This document shows, piece after piece, positions 5,200 to 33,065 of a stretch of 64,000 nucleotides of DNA. Position 1 is the first letter of the stretch, and the number at the start of each line of letters is the position of its first letter. The position numbers and the translations under genes are program-made. Under the pieces are notes generated by a model, which was given only the letters and a program-made list of their open reading frames with translations, had not been told where the DNA came from and ran no database searches. Origin of the DNA: Pseudomonadota bacterium (GTDB taxonomy: Bacteria > Pseudomonadota > Gammaproteobacteria > Steroidobacterales > Woeseiaceae); contig JADFHE010000014.1 of NCBI GenBank assembly GCA_022567295.1, positions 1 to 64,000 of the forward strand, given 5' to 3'.

Positions 5200-6248
5200 T
5201 CTCGGTCATTATCAAAGGGCAGGTCCTGCGTTACCGATGAAGTCGGCGGCTGCAACCCGAAATGCAAATAGGCATTCTTGGTCGCGACCCGGCCTCGCGC
5301 CGTACGCATCATGAATCCCTGCTGGATCAAATAAGGCTCGAGCACATCCTCGATTGTCCCTCTTTCCTCGCCAATCGCCGCCGACAGACTTTCAATTCCA
5401 ACGGGCCCGCCATCGAATTTCTCAATGATCGTCCGCATCAGGCGACGGTCAAGCGCATCGAAGCCATGAGGATCGACCTGCAAAACATCCATTGCACGTT
5501 CAGCGACCTCGCCCGTGACGACGCCATCGCCTTCAACTTGCGCGAAGTCACGAACGCGGCGGAGCAAACGGTTGGCAATTCGCGGAGTACCACGAGCACG
5601 GGTCGCAATCGCCCTGGCACCGTCGTCGTCAGTAGGAAGACTCAGTATCCCGGCAGTACGTCGCACAATCGCCTCCAGATCATCGGCCGAATAGAACTCG
5701 AGCCGCTGCACGATGCCAAAGCGATCCCGCAACGGTGACGTCAGCAACCCTGCGCGTGTCGTTGCGCCAACCAGCGTGAACGGCGGCAGGTCCAGTCTTA
5801 TTGAACGCGCACCAGGACCTTCCCCAATCATGATATCCAGCTGAAAGTCCTCCAGTGCCGGATACAGAACTTCCTCCACAACCGGGCTAAGCCGGTGTAA
5901 TTCATCGACAAAGAGCACATCATTCGGTTCGAGATTCGTCAGTATCGCGGCCAGATCGCCAGGACGCTCAAGTACCGGGCCCGATGTCTGACGCAGACCC
6001 ACTCCCATCTCGTTCGCGATGATGTGAGCCAATGTGGTCTTGCCAAGTCCTGGCGGACCGAAAATTAAGACGTGATCGAGCGCTTCTTCACGGCGTCGAG
6101 CCGCTTCGATGAAGATGCGCATCTGTTGTTTTAGGTCAGGCTGACCGACGAATTCCGCAAGGGTTTTCGGTCGAAAAGCGCGGTCAAACGCTTTATCGTC
6201 GCCACCCGATTCGGCACTGGTCAGACGATCGTGTTCAACGCTCGACAT
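5196..6248 (-). CDS. ruvB: Holliday junction branch migration DNA helicase RuvB
   Basis: [39 protein letters not shown]. Confidence 0.98.
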
Positions 6249-8219: not shown

Positions 8220-10346
8220 ATGTCGCCAAGCGATGCTGAAAAACAAAGTAATGACAGCGATCTGGACGATATCGTCTCCGCAGTACGCGATTATCTGGCC
8301 ACGCTGCCGACGAAAAACGGGCTGGATCTGGCGATCGACGAAGGTGAGCAGATCGCGGCGATCATCGAGCCGCTGGGACTGCCGCCCGGGATCGTCGCGG
8401 CGGTTCATGTATACCCGTTATTCCGGGAGAAAATTCTAAAAGATAAACACTTACAAAACAATCTATTAAAAGATATATCTAGATTTGTTCTAGGATTAGA
8501 GCAGCTAAATCAGTTTTCACTGCCGGGCAATTGGCAACCGGGCGAAGCGCTTGCGGTTCAACAGTCCGAGGCACTGCGCAAAATGCTGCTAGCCGTTGTC
8601 TCCGATGTTCGGCTCGTGCTGGTCCGAATAGCCGAGCAATTGTATCGCTTACGTGCAGCGAGAAAATCACCGCGAGCCGTGCAGCGGTCACTTGTGATCG
8701 AGACGCGCGAAATCTACGCTGCGCTGGCGAATCGCCTGGGTGTCTGGCAACTCAAGTGGGAGCTGGAAGACTACGCATTCCGCTACGATGATCCCGATTC
8801 CTACCTCGGCATCGCCAAAGCACTGAAGGAAAAGCGCGTCGAACGGGAGCACTTCATCGAAGCGGTCAAAGTCCGGTTGCTCAGTGAACTCGGTGCCAAT
8901 TCAATCAGCGCAGAGATTTCCGGCAGACCCAAACACATCTACAGTATCTGGCGCAAAATGCAGCACAAAGATCGCGGCCTTGATTCCCTGTATGACATTC
9001 AGGCCGTCCGTATTCTGGTCGCGGACGTAAACGAGTGTTACGCCGCGCTCGGAATCGTGCACAGCCTCTGGTCCTACATTCCCGGTGAATTCGACGACTA
9101 CATCGCAAATCCCAAGGAGAACGATTACCGCTCGCTGCACACCGCGGTTCTCGGGCCCGAGGGGAAAATCGTCGAAATTCAGATTCGCTCGCACGACATG
9201 CACAACCATGCCGAGTTGGGAGTTGCTGCTCATTGGCGCTATAAGGAAGGCCGTGGCACGCCCGCCGCCTTTGACCAGAAAATTCGTTTTCTGCGACAGC
9301 TGCTTGAGCCGGCGGACGACGGTGCGGACCTGTTGGAACAGATCCGCGATGATTTTTTCGACGACCGGGTATACGCGGTCAGCCCGAAGGGCGACGTTAT
9401 CGAACTCCCTGCAAGCGCGACACCATTGGATTTCGCGTATCACGTGCACACGCAAGTAGGGCATTGCTGCCGTGGTGCCAAGGTCAATGGTCGCATCGTC
9501 CCCCTCACCTACCATGTGCAAAACGGCGATCAGATAGAAATTATAACGGGCAGTCAGGCGCAACCCAGCCGCGATTGGTTAAGCCCGAAACTTGGATACC
9601 TCGCTGGTGCGCGAGCGCGTGCAAAAGTGCGCAACTGGTTCCGCCAGCAAGACCGCGAGCAGCACTTGCGGCAAGGCCGGGAAATTCTCGACCGTGAACT
9701 GGCGCGACTCAATGAAAAAGATGTTCCGACGGATGCCATCGCAAACAGGCTGAAACACAAAGACACCCATGCACTGTGCGTCGCTCTTGGTGCCGGTGAC
9801 TTGACTGCAGCATCGATTGCGACAGCGCTGCAACACCTTCGCGGTCCGGAACCGCCGGCGATCAAATCACGCCGCCAGGCCAGGCGCAAAAACAGGAAAC
9901 CGGATTCCATCGCCGTGAGCGGAGTCGGAGACCTCATGTGCAATTTCGCGCGATGCTGCCGGCCCGTGCCACCGGAACCGATCATCGGCTACATCACGAA
10001 AGGACGTGGCGTCAGCATACATCGTCAGGATTGCGGCAATTTCCTGGCCTTGAACCAGAGAAGCCCCGAACGTGTGCTGGAAACAAGCTGGGGGCAATCC
10101 GACAGCTCGTACCCGGTCGATCTAACGCTGCATGCTTTCGATCGCAGTGGGTTAATCAGGGATATCACGGCCGTACTGGCCGACGAAAACGCGAATGTGC
10201 TGGAACTCAAGAGTCGGACCGACAAGGAGTCGATGCAGGTGATCATGGAACTCAGCGTGGAGATCAAGGACCTGCCGACTTTGAGTACGGCGATCACGAG
10301 GCTGGAGCAGTTGCCCAACGTCGTGTCGGTCAGGCGCAAGGCCTGA
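8220..10346 (+). CDS. relA: RelA-type (p)ppGpp synthetase, probably lacking hydrolase activity
   Basis: Synthetase motif region (RPKHIYSIWRKMQHKD, YDIQAVRILV), TGS and ACT domains. The SpoT-type HD catalytic residues are not evident in the N-terminal domain. Likely start is the internal ATG at 8220, not the ORF-track start 7692. Confidence 0.92.
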   Translation: MSPSDAEKQSNDSDLDDIVSAVRDYLATLPTKNGLDLAIDEGEQIAAIIEPLGLPPGIVAAVHVYPLFREKILKDKHLQNNLLKDISRFVLGLEQLNQFSLPGNWQPGEALAVQQSEALRKMLLAVVSDVRLVLVRIAEQLYRLRAARKSPRAVQRSLVIETREIYAALANRLGVWQLKWELEDYAFRYDDPDSYLGIAKALKEKRVEREHFIEAVKVRLLSELGANSISAEISGRPKHIYSIWRKMQHKDRGLDSLYDIQAVRILVADVNECYAALGIVHSLWSYIPGEFDDYIANPKENDYRSLHTAVLGPEGKIVEIQIRSHDMHNHAELGVAAHWRYKEGRGTPAAFDQKIRFLRQLLEPADDGADLLEQIRDDFFDDRVYAVSPKGDVIELPASATPLDFAYHVHTQVGHCCRGAKVNGRIVPLTYHVQNGDQIEIITGSQAQPSRDWLSPKLGYLAGARARAKVRNWFRQQDREQHLRQGREILDRELARLNEKDVPTDAIANRLKHKDTHALCVALGAGDLTAASIATALQHLRGPEPPAIKSRRQARRKNRKPDSIAVSGVGDLMCNFARCCRPVPPEPIIGYITKGRGVSIHRQDCGNFLALNQRSPERVLETSWGQSDSSYPVDLTLHAFDRSGLIRDITAVLADENANVLELKSRTDKESMQVIMELSVEIKDLPTLSTAITRLEQLPNVVSVRRKA

Positions 10347-16215: not shown

Positions 16216-19091
16216 TGGGTCTTCCGTTTCGTTTTCTCTGGCGTGGTCACTCGGCTCGCCTCAGACTTTATACCGAGTGCGGCTTCCACCAGGGCCTGCT
16301 GCTGTTGCAGATGAATTTTGAAAATACCAGAAGCAGGCGCCGCCGCACTGGCCCGCCCTGCATAGTAAAGCTGCTGATGATCCTTCAGGGGATCCTGCAG
16401 GCGATGCTTTATTTGATACCAGGCGCCCTGATTGAGGGGTTCTTCCTGGCACCAGACCACTTCTTCGACGTGCGCATACCGCTTCACTAGGTCAGCGTAT
16501 TCGTTGATGGGGAAAGGATAAATTTGTTCGACGCGTATTAACGCAACGTCGTTAATGTCATGCACTTCGCGTGCCTCAAGCAAATCGAAATAAACCTTAC
16601 CGCTGCAAAATACGAGGCGACGAGTTTTCTTTGTGTCGATCGCCTCGTTCTCGGGGATAATCAATTCGAATTGACCGTTTGAGAGCTCATCGATTGACGA
16701 TACCGACTGCTTGTGGCGTAGCAAGCTTTTCGGGGTCATCACGATGAGCGGTTTGCGGTAATTGCGTACCTGCTGGCGACGGATCATGTGGAACATTTGC
16801 GCCGGCGTAGATGGAACGCAGACCTGTATATTGTGCTCGGCGCAAAGCTGCAGGAAACGCTCGAGACGCGCGGACGAGTGCTCTGGTCCCTGTCCTTCAT
16901 ATCCATGCGGCAAGAACATCGTTAGCCCACAGAGGCGACCCCATTTCGCCTCGCCGGAGCTGATGAATTGATCGATAACGACCTGTGCCCCGTTGGCGAA
17001 GTCGCCAAACTGGCCCTCCCAAATTACTAACGTATTCGGTTCGGTACTTGCGTAGCCATACTCGAAACCAAGCACCGCTTCTTCCGACAGCAGTGAGTCG
17101 ATGACGCGGAAGGCGTCGGGCCGGTCAACAACGTGCGCCAATGGTGTGTACTCACGATTATTCAACTGGTTGTGCACTACCGCGTGGCGGTGAAAAAACG
17201 TCCCGCGACCAGTATCCTGACCCACCAGCCGAACATCGTGGCCATCTCGCAGCAAAGAAGCGTATGCCATCGTCTCTGCAAAACCCCAATCCATGGGTAC
17301 AGCACCGGCGACCATTTTCACACGCTCGTCCATTATGCGTTGTACCCGACCGTGCGGTTTCATGTCCGGCGGCAGTGTCGTCACCAGCGTACCAAGATCG
17401 GCAACCGTCTTTGGACTGATCGCCGTATCATGTGGATCGTCCCATTGCGTGTGCAGGAACGGCGTCCAGTCAACCGTGAACGCGTTGCCGATCATTCCGA
17501 GAGACGCTTGTTGCACCGGCGCGCCACGATCCAGGCGATCCCGGTACTCATCCTGAAGCTTCGACGCACCGGCCGCCGTTGCCAGCTGCAGTTCGACAAG
17601 CCGGTCCACATACAATTCCCGCGTCGTCTTGCGGCTCTTGATCCGGCCATACATGATCGGCTGCGTCGCGGCGGGCTCATCGGCCTCGTTGTGGCCATGG
17701 CGCCGATAACAAACAAGATCGATCACGACGTCTTTATTGAATTTTTGCCGATACTTCAGGGCAAGGCGCGTCACGAAAATTACTGCTTCCGGATCATCGC
17801 CATTCACATGGAAGATGGGCGCCTCGATCATCTTGGCGACATCGCTGCAATAGTCAGTCGAACGAGCGTCCGACGGGCGGCTGGTTGTGAAGCCTATCTG
17901 ATTATTCACGACAACGTGAATAGTACCGCCAGTACGAAAACCGTTCGTCTGCGACATCTGAAAAGTTTCTGTAACAACGCCCTGAGCAGAGAACGCGGCG
18001 TCGCCGTGGATTAGAACCGGCAAGACTTCTTGCCGCTCTTTGTCGCCGCGGCGTTGCTGGCGAGCTCGCACCGATCCTTCAACAACGGGATCAACAATTT
18101 CCAGATGCGACGGATTGAATGCGAGCACAATGTGCACGTTGCCACCCGGCGTCTTCATGTCCGCCGAGAATCCTTTGTGGTACTTCACATCCCCTGAGCC
18201 TTTGAGCTCATCGGCGTCGTACTTGCCCTCGAACTCCTCGAACAATTCCTCCGGGGACTTGCCAAGAATGTTAACGAGAACGTTGATGCGGCCGCGGTGC
18301 GCCATGCCGAATACTATTTCCTCGATACCCGATGCTCCGCCCTGCTGAATAATGTCATCGAGCAGCGGGATAAGGCTCTCGCCACCTTCCAGCGAGAAAC
18401 GCTTCTGTCCGACATAACGTGTGTGCAGGTAACGCTCGATGCCTTCTGCGCCCGTTAGCTTCTCCAGTATGTAGAGCCGCTCTTCGTCGCTGAGCGTGTC
18501 AGCCGCCGCCCCTCGTTCGAATCGCTGTCGTAACCAGAGGCGTTCGCGGGCACGGGAGATATGAGCAAATTCGGCGCCTATCTTCCCGCAGTAAATCTTT
18601 TGCAACAAAGCAAGAATGTCACGCAACTTCATGCGCTCTTTGACGGTACCTGCCAGGACTCCTGTGTAAAATTCCAGGTCCATGTCAGACTCGGCCAATC
18701 CGAGGTAATCTAGTTTCAAAACGCCGGGCGTCGGACGTTCCATCAAACCCAATGGATCGATATCGGCGATCTGGTGTCCGCGAAGACTGTATACCTGGAT
18801 CAGTCGCGACACCGCCGCTTGTTTTTCACCTGACGTTGTAGTTTTCGCCGCGGAGCGCGTGACGACCAGACCCGCTTTTCGACCTGCGCGAGATTCCCGG
18901 CGCAACTGATCGCGGATTGATGAGTGCGCAATTTCGGTCGCTGAATCTCCCATAGATTCAAAATATTCGCGCCACCCCTCAGGTATCGACTGTGGCTGTT
19001 CGAGATACTGCTCGTACAGCGACTCAACGGCACTCGCGTTAGCACCGAACAGTGGCGTTGATGCCAATTGTTCTTTGAGGGAATGACTCAT
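16212..19091 (-). CDS. sucA: 2-oxoglutarate dehydrogenase E1 component
   Basis: [59 protein letters not shown]. Confidence 0.98.
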
Positions 19092-25892: not shown

Positions 25893-26318
25893 GTGGACAC
25901 TCTCGACATTTCGGACGACATTCGAATTCCGATGTCCGAGATTCAGATGACGGCCGTCCGCTCACAAGGCGCGGGCGGGCAAAGCGTCAATAAAATTGCC
26001 ACCGCCATTCATCTACGATTCGACGCTCAGAACAGCGACAACATTCCGGACCGAATCAAGTTCAGATTGTCGCTGTCGTCCGATCACAGAATCACCGGCG
26101 ACGGCGTCATTGTAATCAAATCACAGGCACACAGAAGTCAGGAGCGAAACCGGCAGGCGGCCCTCAGCCGCCTGACGGAATTGATCAGGATCACGATGCA
26201 CGAACCAAAGCGACGCATTAAGACCAAGCCCGGCAAGAAAGTGAAGCAGAAACGGCTTGACGAAAAAAGCCGGCGCGGCGAAGTTAAGAAATCACGGCAA
26301 CAAATCGTCGACGACTAG
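25893..26318 (+). CDS. arfB: Alternative ribosome-rescue factor ArfB (YaeJ)
   Basis: GGQ motif RSQGAGGQSVNKIATAIHLRFD; basic C-terminal tail KTKPGKKVKQKRLDEKSRRGEVKKSRQ. Confidence 0.93.
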   Translation: MDTLDISDDIRIPMSEIQMTAVRSQGAGGQSVNKIATAIHLRFDAQNSDNIPDRIKFRLSLSSDHRITGDGVIVIKSQAHRSQERNRQAALSRLTELIRITMHEPKRRIKTKPGKKVKQKRLDEKSRRGEVKKSRQQIVDD

Positions 26319-28216
26319 TTTTTCGACGATAAATCCGCTCCGCAAATCACGCTGTCCTCGGACCATTCGCAGCCGGCACTTTCCCAGTAGTCGAGAACTC
26401 TCAGGCGTTCAAGCAAAGGCATGAATTCCGGGTGTTGGCGAAGAGCCCGCAACTCGGGAATAAACAGCAGGTCCATCTCGAAAATTTCGCCTGGTTGTTC
26501 GAGCAATCTCGCAACACCCATCGCGCCATCAAGGTCGCCCAGGATTGCACGAGCGACAAACTCGATAAACGGCTCCACCTGGCGCTCGGCAGCAGCTACA
26601 TCAAGCGCTTGCAATGCTTCAGGCACTCGTGAGGAATCTGCCATCGCAGCAAATAAGGGATCGATCCAATCGGTGCGGGCGCCAAACATTTTGATGCCGG
26701 AAATCGTCTCATTGCGCGCCTTGTCGATCTGCCCGTCTCTTGCCAACAGTAGCGCGTAGCCAATTAGATGTGTCGAGCCACCCCATCCCAGGTCTATTGA
26801 TCGCGTAAAATATTCGTACGCATTTTTTCGGTCATCAACCCACGTATACGCAAGCGCAAGCCGGCTATTCAAAAGGCCCGAGCTCGGATCTATCTTGACC
26901 GCTCTTTGTACAAGCTCCAATGCGTCATCGAGTCGCCCTACGCTCGCGAGCATCCGCGAATACCAGTTGAACGCGTTCGAATCTACGACGTCGGCATTAA
27001 CGGCTCTGAAATATGCCTGCTCCGATTCAGCCCAACGTTTTTCCTTGTGGTAGACGTAGCCATATATGGCGCCGGCAGCGTCCTCAATGATCGGATCGAG
27101 CTTAATTCCTTGTTCCACAGTTTCGCGCGCGCGTCGATTCATCTCTTCCAGCGGCGCGTGGCGGTAGTCGACCATGAGGGCGTAGGCAGTCGCCAGCGCG
27201 AGATACGAGGGGCCGTAATGATCGTCGCGGCGAATTGCGGTCTCAAAGAGCTCGATCGACTGTTCCAGGTTTCCCGGATCGCCGCGACGCTCCAATGCAT
27301 ACATTCCGCGCATGTAGCTATCGTAAGCGTCACTTTCCGGGCGATGGCCTTTGATTAACGCCGGCGACAAATTGTCTCCCAGATCGGATCTGACAGTCTT
27401 CGACAATTTCTCTTGTAATGAGAACAAGTCGGCAGCTGTTCCGTCCACAGTTTCCGAAAATACAACCTCTCCACGTTTCGAAATTTCATAACTGATTTTG
27501 AGGATATTGCCGTCTCGCTGCATCGATCCGATCAGCACGCTCTCGACACCCAGAAGTTTCGCAATTTCTTCCGATTCCATTTCATATCTAACCCGGCTGC
27601 GCTTGACGATGAAGTCCTTCATTCCATGCAGCGCCTGAACAAGCGCAAATTGAAACGCGGACACAATGTATTCATCGTCTTCCACGCCGCTCAGATTCTC
27701 GAAGGGTAAAACCGCGATTGACTTGACAGGAGGCGGTAGCTGCTGTGGCTGCATTTCCGGCCCCGGCGGCCCGATGAACCAGACTATTGCGACAATAGCG
27801 ACCGCAAGAAAGGCTACCATGGGTTTCCAACGCCGCAGGTTCGGACCGGTCTCAGGCACTGGTGCAGGCACGGGATCCGGGCGCTGGTGCAGTTCCACTC
27901 GCTGCTTTAGCCGGTAGCCGCGCCTCTGCAGCGTTTCAACGAGCTGCCGATTCTCGCTATCGTCCAGATGACGACGCAGTTGATAGACACAGCGTGTAAT
28001 CGGCTCATCCGCAGTAGGACGGCCGTCCCAGACTTCGTCAATCAGTTCCTGCTTGGTAACCAGATTTGTGTCGCGCTTCGCGAGCGCAATCAGTACAGCG
28101 AACACTTTGGGTTCCGGCCGCTCTTCCTGATCTCCACGGCGAAATACTCCCTTGCCCGGCAGAATGTCCCAATCCCCGAGCGTGAATCCTTCCTGAAGTT
28201 CTTCTTCTGTCGGCAT
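26315..28216 (-). CDS. CadC-like winged-helix transcriptional regulator with TM segment and TPR domain
   Basis: N-terminal OmpR-type wHTH (LVTKQELIDEVWDGRPTADEPITRCVYQLRRHL...TLQRRGYRL), TM MVAFLAVAIVAIVWFIG, FPENLSG-like region, TPRs. Confidence 0.88.
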   Translation of the reverse strand: MPTEEELQEGFTLGDWDILPGKGVFRRGDQEERPEPKVFAVLIALAKRDTNLVTKQELIDEVWDGRPTADEPITRCVYQLRRHLDDSENRQLVETLQRRGYRLKQRVELHQRPDPVPAPVPETGPNLRRWKPMVAFLAVAIVAIVWFIGPPGPEMQPQQLPPPVKSIAVLPFENLSGVEDDEYIVSAFQFALVQALHGMKDFIVKRSRVRYEMESEEIAKLLGVESVLIGSMQRDGNILKISYEISKRGEVVFSETVDGTAADLFSLQEKLSKTVRSDLGDNLSPALIKGHRPESDAYDSYMRGMYALERRGDPGNLEQSIELFETAIRRDDHYGPSYLALATAYALMVDYRHAPLEEMNRRARETVEQGIKLDPIIEDAAGAIYGYVYHKEKRWAESEQAYFRAVNADVVDSNAFNWYSRMLASVGRLDDALELVQRAVKIDPSSGLLNSRLALAYTWVDDRKNAYEYFTRSIDLGWGGSTHLIGYALLLARDGQIDKARNETISGIKMFGARTDWIDPLFAAMADSSRVPEALQALDVAAAERQVEPFIEFVARAILGDLDGAMGVARLLEQPGEIFEMDLLFIPELRALRQHPEFMPLLERLRVLDYWESAGCEWSEDSVICGADLSSKN

Positions 28217-30769: not shown

Positions 30770-30965
30770 TGTCGAAAATATCCGATTATTCGACACAAGT
30801 CACAAACGTGTCGACGAAATCGACATATACTCAAGACCTGTCGAAATTTCTTTGATTTATCGACATATTAGTGAAACGTGTCGATGAAAGCGACAGTTTG
30901 GACGAATATGTCGATTTATCAGTGTTTTTTCGACTTATCACTACGGCATGTCGATCGAATCGACA
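30770..30965. promoter_or_regulatory. Array of 12 alternating TGTCGA/TCGACA half-sites (candidate operator array)
   Basis: TGTCGA at 30770, 30809, 30839, 30879, 30909, 30949; TCGACA (or one-mismatch GCGACA/TCGACT) at 30790, 30820, 30860, 30890, 30930, 30960. Confidence 0.8.
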
Positions 30966-30994
30966 CGACGATCATCAACCAGGAGCAACTCCAA

Positions 30995-32149
30995 GTGACT
31001 GATTTTAATCCTGAAGCCCCCTACAACAGCCTGCCTTCGCTGCCACCGCCCAGCGACCAGATCGAAACGACTGAAATCCTGAAACGATGCATCAAAGCGC
31101 GCGTCGCCCTGGCTGAACTCAAGCAGGCTGCCGAGCTGATTCCGAATTCGGCGGTGCTGGTCAATGCATTGCCCCTGCTCGAGGCCCGCGCCAGCTCCGA
31201 GATTGAGAACATAGTGACAACGACTGACAAGCTGTTCGAGTTCGCCGATATTGCCGACGACCGGGCGGACGCCGCGACCAAGGAAGCTCTGCGCTACCGC
31301 ACGGCGTTGTACGAGGGCACCAAGATGGTACAGCGACGCATGCTGACCACGGATATGGCAATACAGGTATGCAGCACCGTTAAAGGCGTGGAGCTGGATA
31401 TCCGAGCAGAAGCCGGAACGACGCTCAAGAACCGCATGTCGGGCGAAGTAATCTATACGCCCCCGACCGGCCAACAACTATTGATCGAAAAACTCGATAA
31501 CTGGGCCGATTTCATGCACAGCCATACTGAAATCGATCCGCTGGTGCGAATGGCGGTGCAACACTATCAGTTCGAGGCCATTCACCCGTTTGCGGACGGC
31601 AACGGTCGAACCGGACGTATCTTAAATATTCTATTCCTGGTCGAGCACGGACTGCTCGATTCACCAATTCTGTACCTGAGTCGTTACATCATCCAACACA
31701 AGGCGGCCTACTACCGCTTGCTGCAAAAGGTAACCAGAGATCAGGACTGGGCGTCGTGGATACTCTTTATTCTCGACGGTGTCGAAGAAACCTGCACCTG
31801 GACCACCGACAAGATCAAGTCGATACGCGAACTCATGGAGCACACCGCTCAGTTCGTCCAAAAGAGTCTGCCGAAAATCTATTCATGGGAGTTTGTCGAG
31901 TTACTGTTCAAGCAGCCCTACTGTCGAATCGGCAACCTGGTTGATAATGGCATCGCGAAACGGCAAACAGCATCGGTTTACCTGAAGCAGCTTAGCGAGC
32001 TTGGGGTACTGCGGGAGATTAAGTCCGGTCGTGAGAACCTGTTTGTTCACCCGAAATACATGGAGTTGCTGACAGGGGAGGAAAACGTCTGGGTATATTA
32101 CGCAGGTATTGAGACTGAAACCGCGGCACAGTCCGAACAGAGTGCCTGA
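30995..32149 (+). CDS. Fic family protein (class II Fic, AMP transferase-like) with C-terminal winged-helix-like region
   Basis: Fic motif [12 protein letters not shown]; inhibitory motif SSEIEN; C-term [42 protein letters not shown] at 30995 with SD AGGAG. Confidence 0.92.
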
Positions 32150-32216: not shown

Positions 32217-33065
32217 TTGAGCATTAACAGCAATCGGCTGTTTCAGCTATTCAAGTACGCCGTATACGTCTTGCTTGCATTCAACGTATTCGTGTTTTGG
32301 AGCGAAGAGACTCTCGCCAACGCAATTCAGTACCCCCATGGCGTCAGCCTGTCCGAAGTTATTAGTGCGTACTCCGCAACGATCGACACGGCAGCCTGGG
32401 TCGTCCTATTGTTGATGTTCGAGCTCGAAACTCATGTGCTCGAAGATCATCACTACAGCACCGCCGTGACCTGGTCATTGCATGGCGTTCGATTTCTTTG
32501 TTATGTATTCATCGTTTATGCTTTTTACGGCTACATCATCAATCTGACGTTTATCTTTCAGGCAGTACCACTAACGGGCGTATCTGACGTTTGTGTGCTG
32601 GTGTCGGACGGGTGGTCATACGCCATCGATCTCGATGAATACACCCAATTGACCGCTGCAAACTGCGGCACATTTTCGAACGCCAGCGCGTATCTCCGAT
32701 TTGAGGGAATAACTGCGGTTGTCGATGCAACAGGGCTTGTTGACATCAGGAATCTCGCCTGGGTCGACGTAATCAACGCGGCGGTTTGGTTGCTCGTGGT
32801 GTTAGTGCTCGAAGCTGACGTCTGGCTTCAGGAACGTAATCGCTTCGAGGGTTTCGCGCTTCGGACCAGTCAGGCGATCAAGTCTGTTTTGTACACAGTT
32901 TTGCTTTTTGCGGCGGTCTACTGGGGATTTAACGGCGATTTCGTCGACTTCTGGGATGCCTTCTTATGGCTCGTAGCATTCGTTTTCATCGAGCTTAACG
33001 TCTTCGAGTGGCGACAGGAAGTCAATGAATCCGCAGCACACAGCCAGATCACGGCAACATCATGA
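32217..33065 (+). CDS. Hypothetical multi-pass membrane protein
   Basis: TTG start; several TM helices (FKYAVYVLLAFNVFVFW, AAWVVLLLMFELETHVLEDHHY, INAAVWLLVVLVLEADVWLQ). Confidence 0.65.
   Translation: MSINSNRLFQLFKYAVYVLLAFNVFVFWSEETLANAIQYPHGVSLSEVISAYSATIDTAAWVVLLLMFELETHVLEDHHYSTAVTWSLHGVRFLCYVFIVYAFYGYIINLTFIFQAVPLTGVSDVCVLVSDGWSYAIDLDEYTQLTAANCGTFSNASAYLRFEGITAVVDATGLVDIRNLAWVDVINAAVWLLVVLVLEADVWLQERNRFEGFALRTSQAIKSVLYTVLLFAAVYWGFNGDFVDFWDAFLWLVAFVFIELNVFEWRQEVNESAAHSQITATS

Follow-up and report, generated by a model that had tools for sequence, protein, structure and literature searches.

Class II Fic proteins that carry a DNA-binding domain have been described in several bacteria, and the precedent among them is CccR of Yersinia pseudotuberculosis, a proven autorepressor (3.3-fold) whose C-terminal HTH contacts inverted repeats close to the -35 and -10 boxes of its own promoter, dimerisation being needed (PMC9755527). 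The CccR operator consists of one pair of 10-bp boxes, AGATAATCAT-N26-ATGATAATCT, and CccR itself belongs to a distant Fic family and is secreted by a T6SS (PMC9755527). CbFic2 of Coxiella burnetii is another class II Fic protein with a DNA-binding winged HTH, and its AMPylation and deAMPylation activities are stimulated by DNA binding (PMC10628234). It differs from the protein considered here in that it binds random DNA, acts on histone H3 and has no described operator (PMC10628234). The AbiEi antitoxins are wHTH proteins of defence or toxin loci that regulate themselves cooperatively on several inverted repeats (PMC3985639, PMC7319586). For SoFic homologues of the protein considered here, AMPylation and anti-phage toxicity have been established, and E. 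coli Sofic is a dimer in solution, whose C-terminal domain has been treated only as a regulator of toxicity (PMC12249575). Neither an operator nor DNA binding is described in the SoFic papers found (PMC3667792, PMC12249575), and a literature search for TGTCGA in connection with Fic returned nothing.

The locus analyzed here lies in a stretch of 64,000 nucleotides (the window) and resembles that of CccR in two ways: its Fic enzyme is of class II and ends in an HTH, and inverted repeats lie in the probable promoter of the gene itself. The architecture of the putative operator is different: in place of two boxes of 10 bp separated by 26 bp, the window locus contains many 6-bp half-sites spaced by 11, 19 and 21 bp, and the SoFic lattices comprise 6-14 TGTCGA half-sites at these intervals. 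The likeness to AbiEi is also limited, because there the antitoxin binds the DNA, whereas in SoFic the toxin-like enzyme itself has the DNA-binding domain. Autoregulation by a Fic-HTH protein is known already from CccR; the literature searched contained no description of a putative operator lattice common to the SoFic family, of a code relating half-site to protein, of the overlap with the promoter or of the extension in Woeseiaceae.

The SoFic protein encoded in the window

The fic gene (30995..32149, + strand) starts with GTG, follows a ribosome-binding site AGGAG (30981..30985, +) and encodes a protein adenylyltransferase of 384 aa. By its sequence, this gene is a member of the SoFic family (NF046030): the product scores 600.4 bits against the family model (cut-off 550) over model positions 1-360 of 361 and 406 bits against the PADLOC "SoFic" model, combines the Pfam domains Fic_N, Fic and SoFic-like_C, and contains both family motifs, the HPFxDGNGRxxR Fic motif and the N-terminal [ST]xxxE[GN] class II inhibitory helix. 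The catalytic motif occupies residues 197-208 (31583..31618, +). The first-pass annotation had described a class II Fic protein with a winged-helix-like C-terminus of its own, and both parts are borne out: the inhibitory motif SSEIEN is present at residues 67-72 (31193..31210, +), and residues 280-355 (31832..32059, +) match the SoFic-like C-terminal winged-helix domain PF21248 (E 1.4e-35). SoFic of Shewanella oneidensis (SO_4266; PDB 3zcn, 3eqx) is 57-58% identical over its full length and has the same domains and motifs. In an AlphaFold2 model for which the input was restricted to sequences from the window and from Woeseiaceae (pLDDT 66.9 on average, with good values in the wHTH), the C-terminal domain adopts a canonical winged-helix fold, with helices at 298-304, 312-317 and 323-335 and strands at 340-344 and 347-351; the third of these helices (31961..31999, +) is the predicted recognition helix. 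Only ~95 residues of the window protein can be aligned in sequence with PDB entry 7xux, which we take to be CccR. Four SoFic PDB entries, 9tb0, 9tc4, 9tch and 9tcl, might bear on the novelty of the operator.

A half-site array across the probable fic promoter and its conservation

The twelve alternating TGTCGA/TCGACA half-sites reported between 30770 and 30965 are all present at their positions, ten of them perfect and two with one mismatch, and their start-to-start intervals (20, 19, 11, 19, 21, 19, 11, 19, 21, 19 and 11 bp) are reproduced exactly. A sequence pattern search places the first half-site, TGTCGA, at 30770..30775 (+) and the second, TCGACA, inverted to it, at 30790..30795 (-), the interval of 20 bp between them being unusual. 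Half-sites 3 (30809-30814, +) and 4 (30820-30825, -) are 11 bp apart and form a 17-bp palindrome, TGTCGACGAAATCGACA (30809..30825), which takes the place of the -35/-10 spacer. They are followed by an inverted pair at 21 bp (half-sites 5, 30839-30844, +, and 6, 30860-30865, -; together 30839..30865), an 11-bp pair (7, 30879-30884, +, and 8, 30890-30895, the one-mismatch form GCGACA; 30879..30895), a second 21-bp pair (9, 30909-30914, +, and 10, 30930-30935, the one-mismatch form TCGACT; 30909..30935) and a final 11-bp pair (11, 30949-30954, +, and 12, 30960-30965, -; 30949..30965). The proposed higher-order repeat of about 70 bp also emerges from a repeat search, as three copies spaced by 70 and 70 bp, and the GTG codon at 30995 lies 30 bp past the last half-site, as had been noted. 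Exact half-sites number 10 in the 196 bp of the array, and no other stretch of this length in the window has more than 3; dinucleotide shuffles of the array region (n=5000) yield no more than 5 (Poisson P ~5e-14). TGTCGA/TCGACA is the most frequent 6-mer of the region, with 10 copies against 6 for the runner-up. Throughout the 3.0-Mb genome assembly, TGTCGA-N(5-15)-TCGACA occurs in 19 places, of which 4 are at the fic locus, and only those build an array; by this pattern search, the array is unique in its genome rather than a genome-wide element unrelated to fic.

The array probably covers both the promoter and the leader of fic. The inverted repeats fall at the -35/-10 region of the gene's own putative promoter: in the window, the 17-bp palindrome is directly followed by TATACT (30826..30831, +), a probable -10 box that abuts half-site 4 and is conserved in most Woeseiaceae loci, and GTCAC (30799..30803, +), upstream of the promoter copy, is conserved in Woeseiaceae as well. 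A good -35 hexamer was not found at the expected place in the Woeseiaceae loci, the window included. In several gammaproteobacterial loci (L046, L047, L053, L054, L128 and L145), TGTCGA-N5-TCGACA or a near copy exactly fills the distance from a -35-like to a -10-like hexamer, as exemplified by TTGACA-[TGTCGATGTTATAGACA]-TATTCT in L047. A -35/-10 pair with a hexamer score of at least 8 surrounds the 17-bp palindrome in 7 of about 28 loci examined, compared to about 1% of positions by chance.

A scan of 84,980 species genomes identified 33 close homologues, nearly all of them labelled as Woeseiaceae or Gammaproteobacteria MAGs and referred to below as Woeseiaceae for short. Both half-sites and spacing proved to be conserved before the orthologous fic genes, with a TGTCGA array upstream of all 32 Woeseiaceae orthologues for which upstream DNA is available (L029, with no upstream sequence, was excluded). 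When only neighbouring exact half-sites are counted, 86 of the 92 everted pairs in Woeseiaceae have an interval of 19 bp; among the 110 inverted pairs, the interval is 21 bp in 70 and 11 bp in 33 (103 of 110 together). The same intervals recur in 22 other SoFic loci, where everted neighbours are 19 bp apart in 24 of 30 cases and 20 bp apart in 3, and inverted neighbours 21 bp apart in 25 and 11 bp apart in 10 of 40 (35 of 40 together). The lattice is recovered also by a motif-free procedure, which gives best chain scores of 3.0-10.1 among the SoFic loci listed, against a 95th percentile of 2.55 and a maximum of 3.3 in shuffled sequences.

The basic module comprises six half-sites in the order 21-19-11-19-21. 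It is located at -96, -75, -56, -45, -26 and -5 in the alphaproteobacterial plasmid SoFic genes L137, L138 and L140, and within 1 bp of these positions in L142 and L143. Repetition of the module in 70-bp steps is found in Woeseiaceae and a few other loci (L047, L133 and L145). Locus L145, from a Cedecea plasmid, has a heterotypic lattice of about ten half-sites in which TGTCGA alternates with TGTTTA/TAAACA at 21-19-11-19 spacing, and the half-site variant of L052 is TGTCGC.

The lattice accompanies 16 of 18 above-cut-off SoFic genes from other proteobacterial genomes and all 9 sampled plasmid copies of SoFic. A TGTCGA array is absent at two genes scored as SoFic, L085, with the changed helix RHAAS, and L130, at the cut-off, and also at two borderline relatives, L086 and L131. 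Searching in the opposite direction, from DNA pattern to protein, TGTCGAN{5,15}TCGACAN{13}TGTCGA matches 12 of 369 gammaproteobacterial genomes, whereas the reversed control pattern has no match in the same 369. SoFic is encoded in 8 of the 12 (Fisher p 8e-11), namely six other genomes with a copy above the cut-off, the window's own genome and G167, in which the copy is truncated or frameshifted. In G136, a complete array, 11-19-21-19-11-19, precedes a decayed SoFic pseudogene detected by tblastn (L126 3130-3560), and in G082 a decayed SoFic behind the array was recognised by eye (FDPAKPYDALPPL).

Two or three arrays have no adjoining SoFic gene: those of L124 (genome G140) and L125 (G212) and the second array of L123 (G082). 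L123 has two TGTCGA arrays (~5270-5360 and 16315-16360), both within a defence island and separated by 11 kb; one stands before the N-terminal SoFic relic and the second upstream of AbiEi-like genes. The L124 array (9422-9480, G140:C12 ~87421) has the spacing 21-19-11 with the last site decayed and no SoFic nearby; about 80 bp downstream begins an operon encoding a small protein, a DrmD-like SNF2 helicase, a HipBA-like pair and a type III methyltransferase. The orphan array of L125 (3600-3656) is spaced 11-19-21, with a RhuM/Fic-like gene about 2 kb away. In alphaproteobacterial repABC plasmids, SoFic adjoins repC (L137, L139, L143 and L144), often with a recombinase gene after it. A role of the repeats as plasmid iterons was considered and rejected, since the same array is also found on chromosomes.

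Candidate binder, regulatory outcome and alternatives

Comparison with more distant Fic-wHTH proteins points to the protein that most probably reads the array. Genes encoding proteins with 350-400 bits to NF046030 lack TGTCGA; many of them have inverted half-sites of their own, mostly TGT-initial, with inverted neighbours at 21-22 bp and everted neighbours at 19-20 bp. Across Fic-wHTH genes, bases four to six of the half-site vary together with the recognition helix: R[QE].x[SA], the SoFic type, is associated with TGTCGA, R[LIM]TAT with TGTATA, RQTAA with TGTTAA, RATAT with TTGAGA/C and R[LV]TA[SA] with TGTTCA. The R[LIM]TAT/TGTATA and RQTAA/TGTTAA classes are separated with a Fisher p of 9e-5, uncorrected for kinship. 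A tree from which the wHTH was left out shows 7 changes of half-site; a phylogeny-corrected sign test (Q/E) has only 2 independent contrasts, both in the expected direction, a number at which significance is unreachable. Genome G077 encodes two Fic paralogues (L045 and L136), each with a lattice whose half-site suits its own helix. The window's genome also contains a second, sister-type Fic-wHTH gene (G000:C57:11469-12524, L111) with an upstream TGTATA inverted pair that is weak alone. Mainly because half-sites switch with the helix and each of the G077 paralogues has its own half-site, we infer that SoFic itself binds the array through its own wHTH. The earlier proposal of an operator bound by the Fic protein for autoregulation is thus supported, at the level of sequence comparison, by conservation, uniqueness in the genome, the helix-linked change of half-site and the position at the promoter.

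We estimate a probability of roughly 85% that the array is the operator of SoFic, with dimers of the protein binding it through the wHTH and repressing the promoter from which they are expressed. In this model, the winged helix of each subunit would read one TGTCGA half-site, dimers would sit on inverted half-sites about two helical turns (21 bp) apart, and neighbouring dimers would be packed side by side via the invariant 19-bp everted gap. In B-DNA, 21 bp correspond to ~71 A, near the 70 A between the DNA-binding helices of CccR, whose boxes are much farther apart (PMC9755527). The six-half-site module would be centred on the palindrome between -35 and -10, a location at which bound SoFic would exclude RNA polymerase, and repression would keep the amount of this toxic anti-phage enzyme small. 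The Woeseiaceae version of the module is longer: it continues downstream by further units of 70 bp, reaches about a dozen half-sites and crosses the probable 5' leader, and steeper repression would be expected from it. The position of the lattice over the promoter, the toxicity of the enzyme and the autorepression by CccR make repression the likeliest regulatory outcome of SoFic binding.

The promoter itself provides an argument for a different outcome, in which SoFic would be an activator, or a switch that represses at high and activates at low occupancy, rather than a plain repressor: in Woeseiaceae, the -10 box TATACT is excellent and the -35 unrecognisable, as in activator-dependent promoters, and the upstream GTCAC is conserved. 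Where both boxes are recognisable, however, the standard 17-bp spacer lies under the half-sites, which is the classic position of a repressor; CccR represses its own gene (PMC9755527), and self-induction of a toxic enzyme would make for an unstable system unless there were some further brake, so we regard this outcome as quite improbable. The few arrays that stand without SoFic (L124 upstream of the DrmD-like helicase operon, L125 and the second of L123) could instead suggest an unlinked transcription factor that binds the array and controls fic, for example on phage infection or stress. This is highly improbable given that the array is unique in its genome and accompanies SoFic in different classes, on chromosomes as well as on plasmids, irrespective of the adjacent genes; such a factor would also account neither for the helix-linked half-site changes nor for the differing half-sites of two paralogues in one genome. 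We give least credence, and very little, to the repeats acting as RNA, through hairpins in the 5' leader (UGUCGA-N-UCGACA) by which fic would be attenuated at the level of transcription or translation. The leader from 30838, near which transcription is presumed to start, does fold (z = -3.6), but low folding energy is expected of perfect inverted repeats whatever their function, and an Rfam scan gave no family match, with one sub-threshold hit only. Half-sites are located also within the promoter and on its upstream side, hairpins would leave the exact 19-bp everted gaps without a function, and in alphaproteobacteria the entire module, at -96 to -5 relative to the start, overlies the presumed promoter.

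Geometry permits a further, unlikely role for the extended array. A distance of 35 bp (3.33 turns) separates the dyad of each 21-bp pair from that of the neighbouring 11-bp pair, and each dimer would therefore be rotated by ~120 degrees relative to the one before it; the 41-42 bp period of the sister group would place the dimers on one face. The turn of ~120 degrees per dimer allows the extended array to be read as a docking lattice, on which a fixed helical SoFic assembly would keep the enzyme inactive (or deAMPylating), with the DNA serving as antitoxin, and loss of the complex in the course of a phage infection would both derepress the gene and free an active AMPylator.

As an operator of SoFic, the array would supply a candidate DNA target for the winged helix of a widespread single-gene anti-phage defence, together with a half-site, a spacing rule and a promoter position, and the family would offer a natural series of helix-linked half-sites. 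It becomes possible to test how a self-inhibited toxic AMPylator is held at a safe level without a separate antitoxin, whether AMPylation is affected by binding to specific DNA, and in what way this winged helix encodes its specificity.

Co-regulation of the divergent fhs gene, which the first-pass annotation had also brought into consideration, is not favoured, because the upstream neighbours vary while the array remains with fic. In the 32 Woeseiaceae loci, the nearest upstream gene is fhs in 13 and a gene of a 408-aa type, nearer than fhs, in 16, and fhs is absent near the fic genes of plasmids and other genera, where the array stays. Downstream of fic, on the same strand and at a distance of 67 bp, the window encodes a 282-aa protein (32217-33065) with no Pfam or NCBIfam match and with a homologue in 28 of the 33 Woeseiaceae loci; its gene is a possible operon partner of fic. 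In the E. coli Sofic-AS1 toxin-antitoxin pair, the downstream AS1 gene encodes 47 aa. Farther away in the window, a gene on the minus strand (26315-28216) encodes a CadC/HilA-like protein with an OmpR-type wHTH followed by a TPR region.
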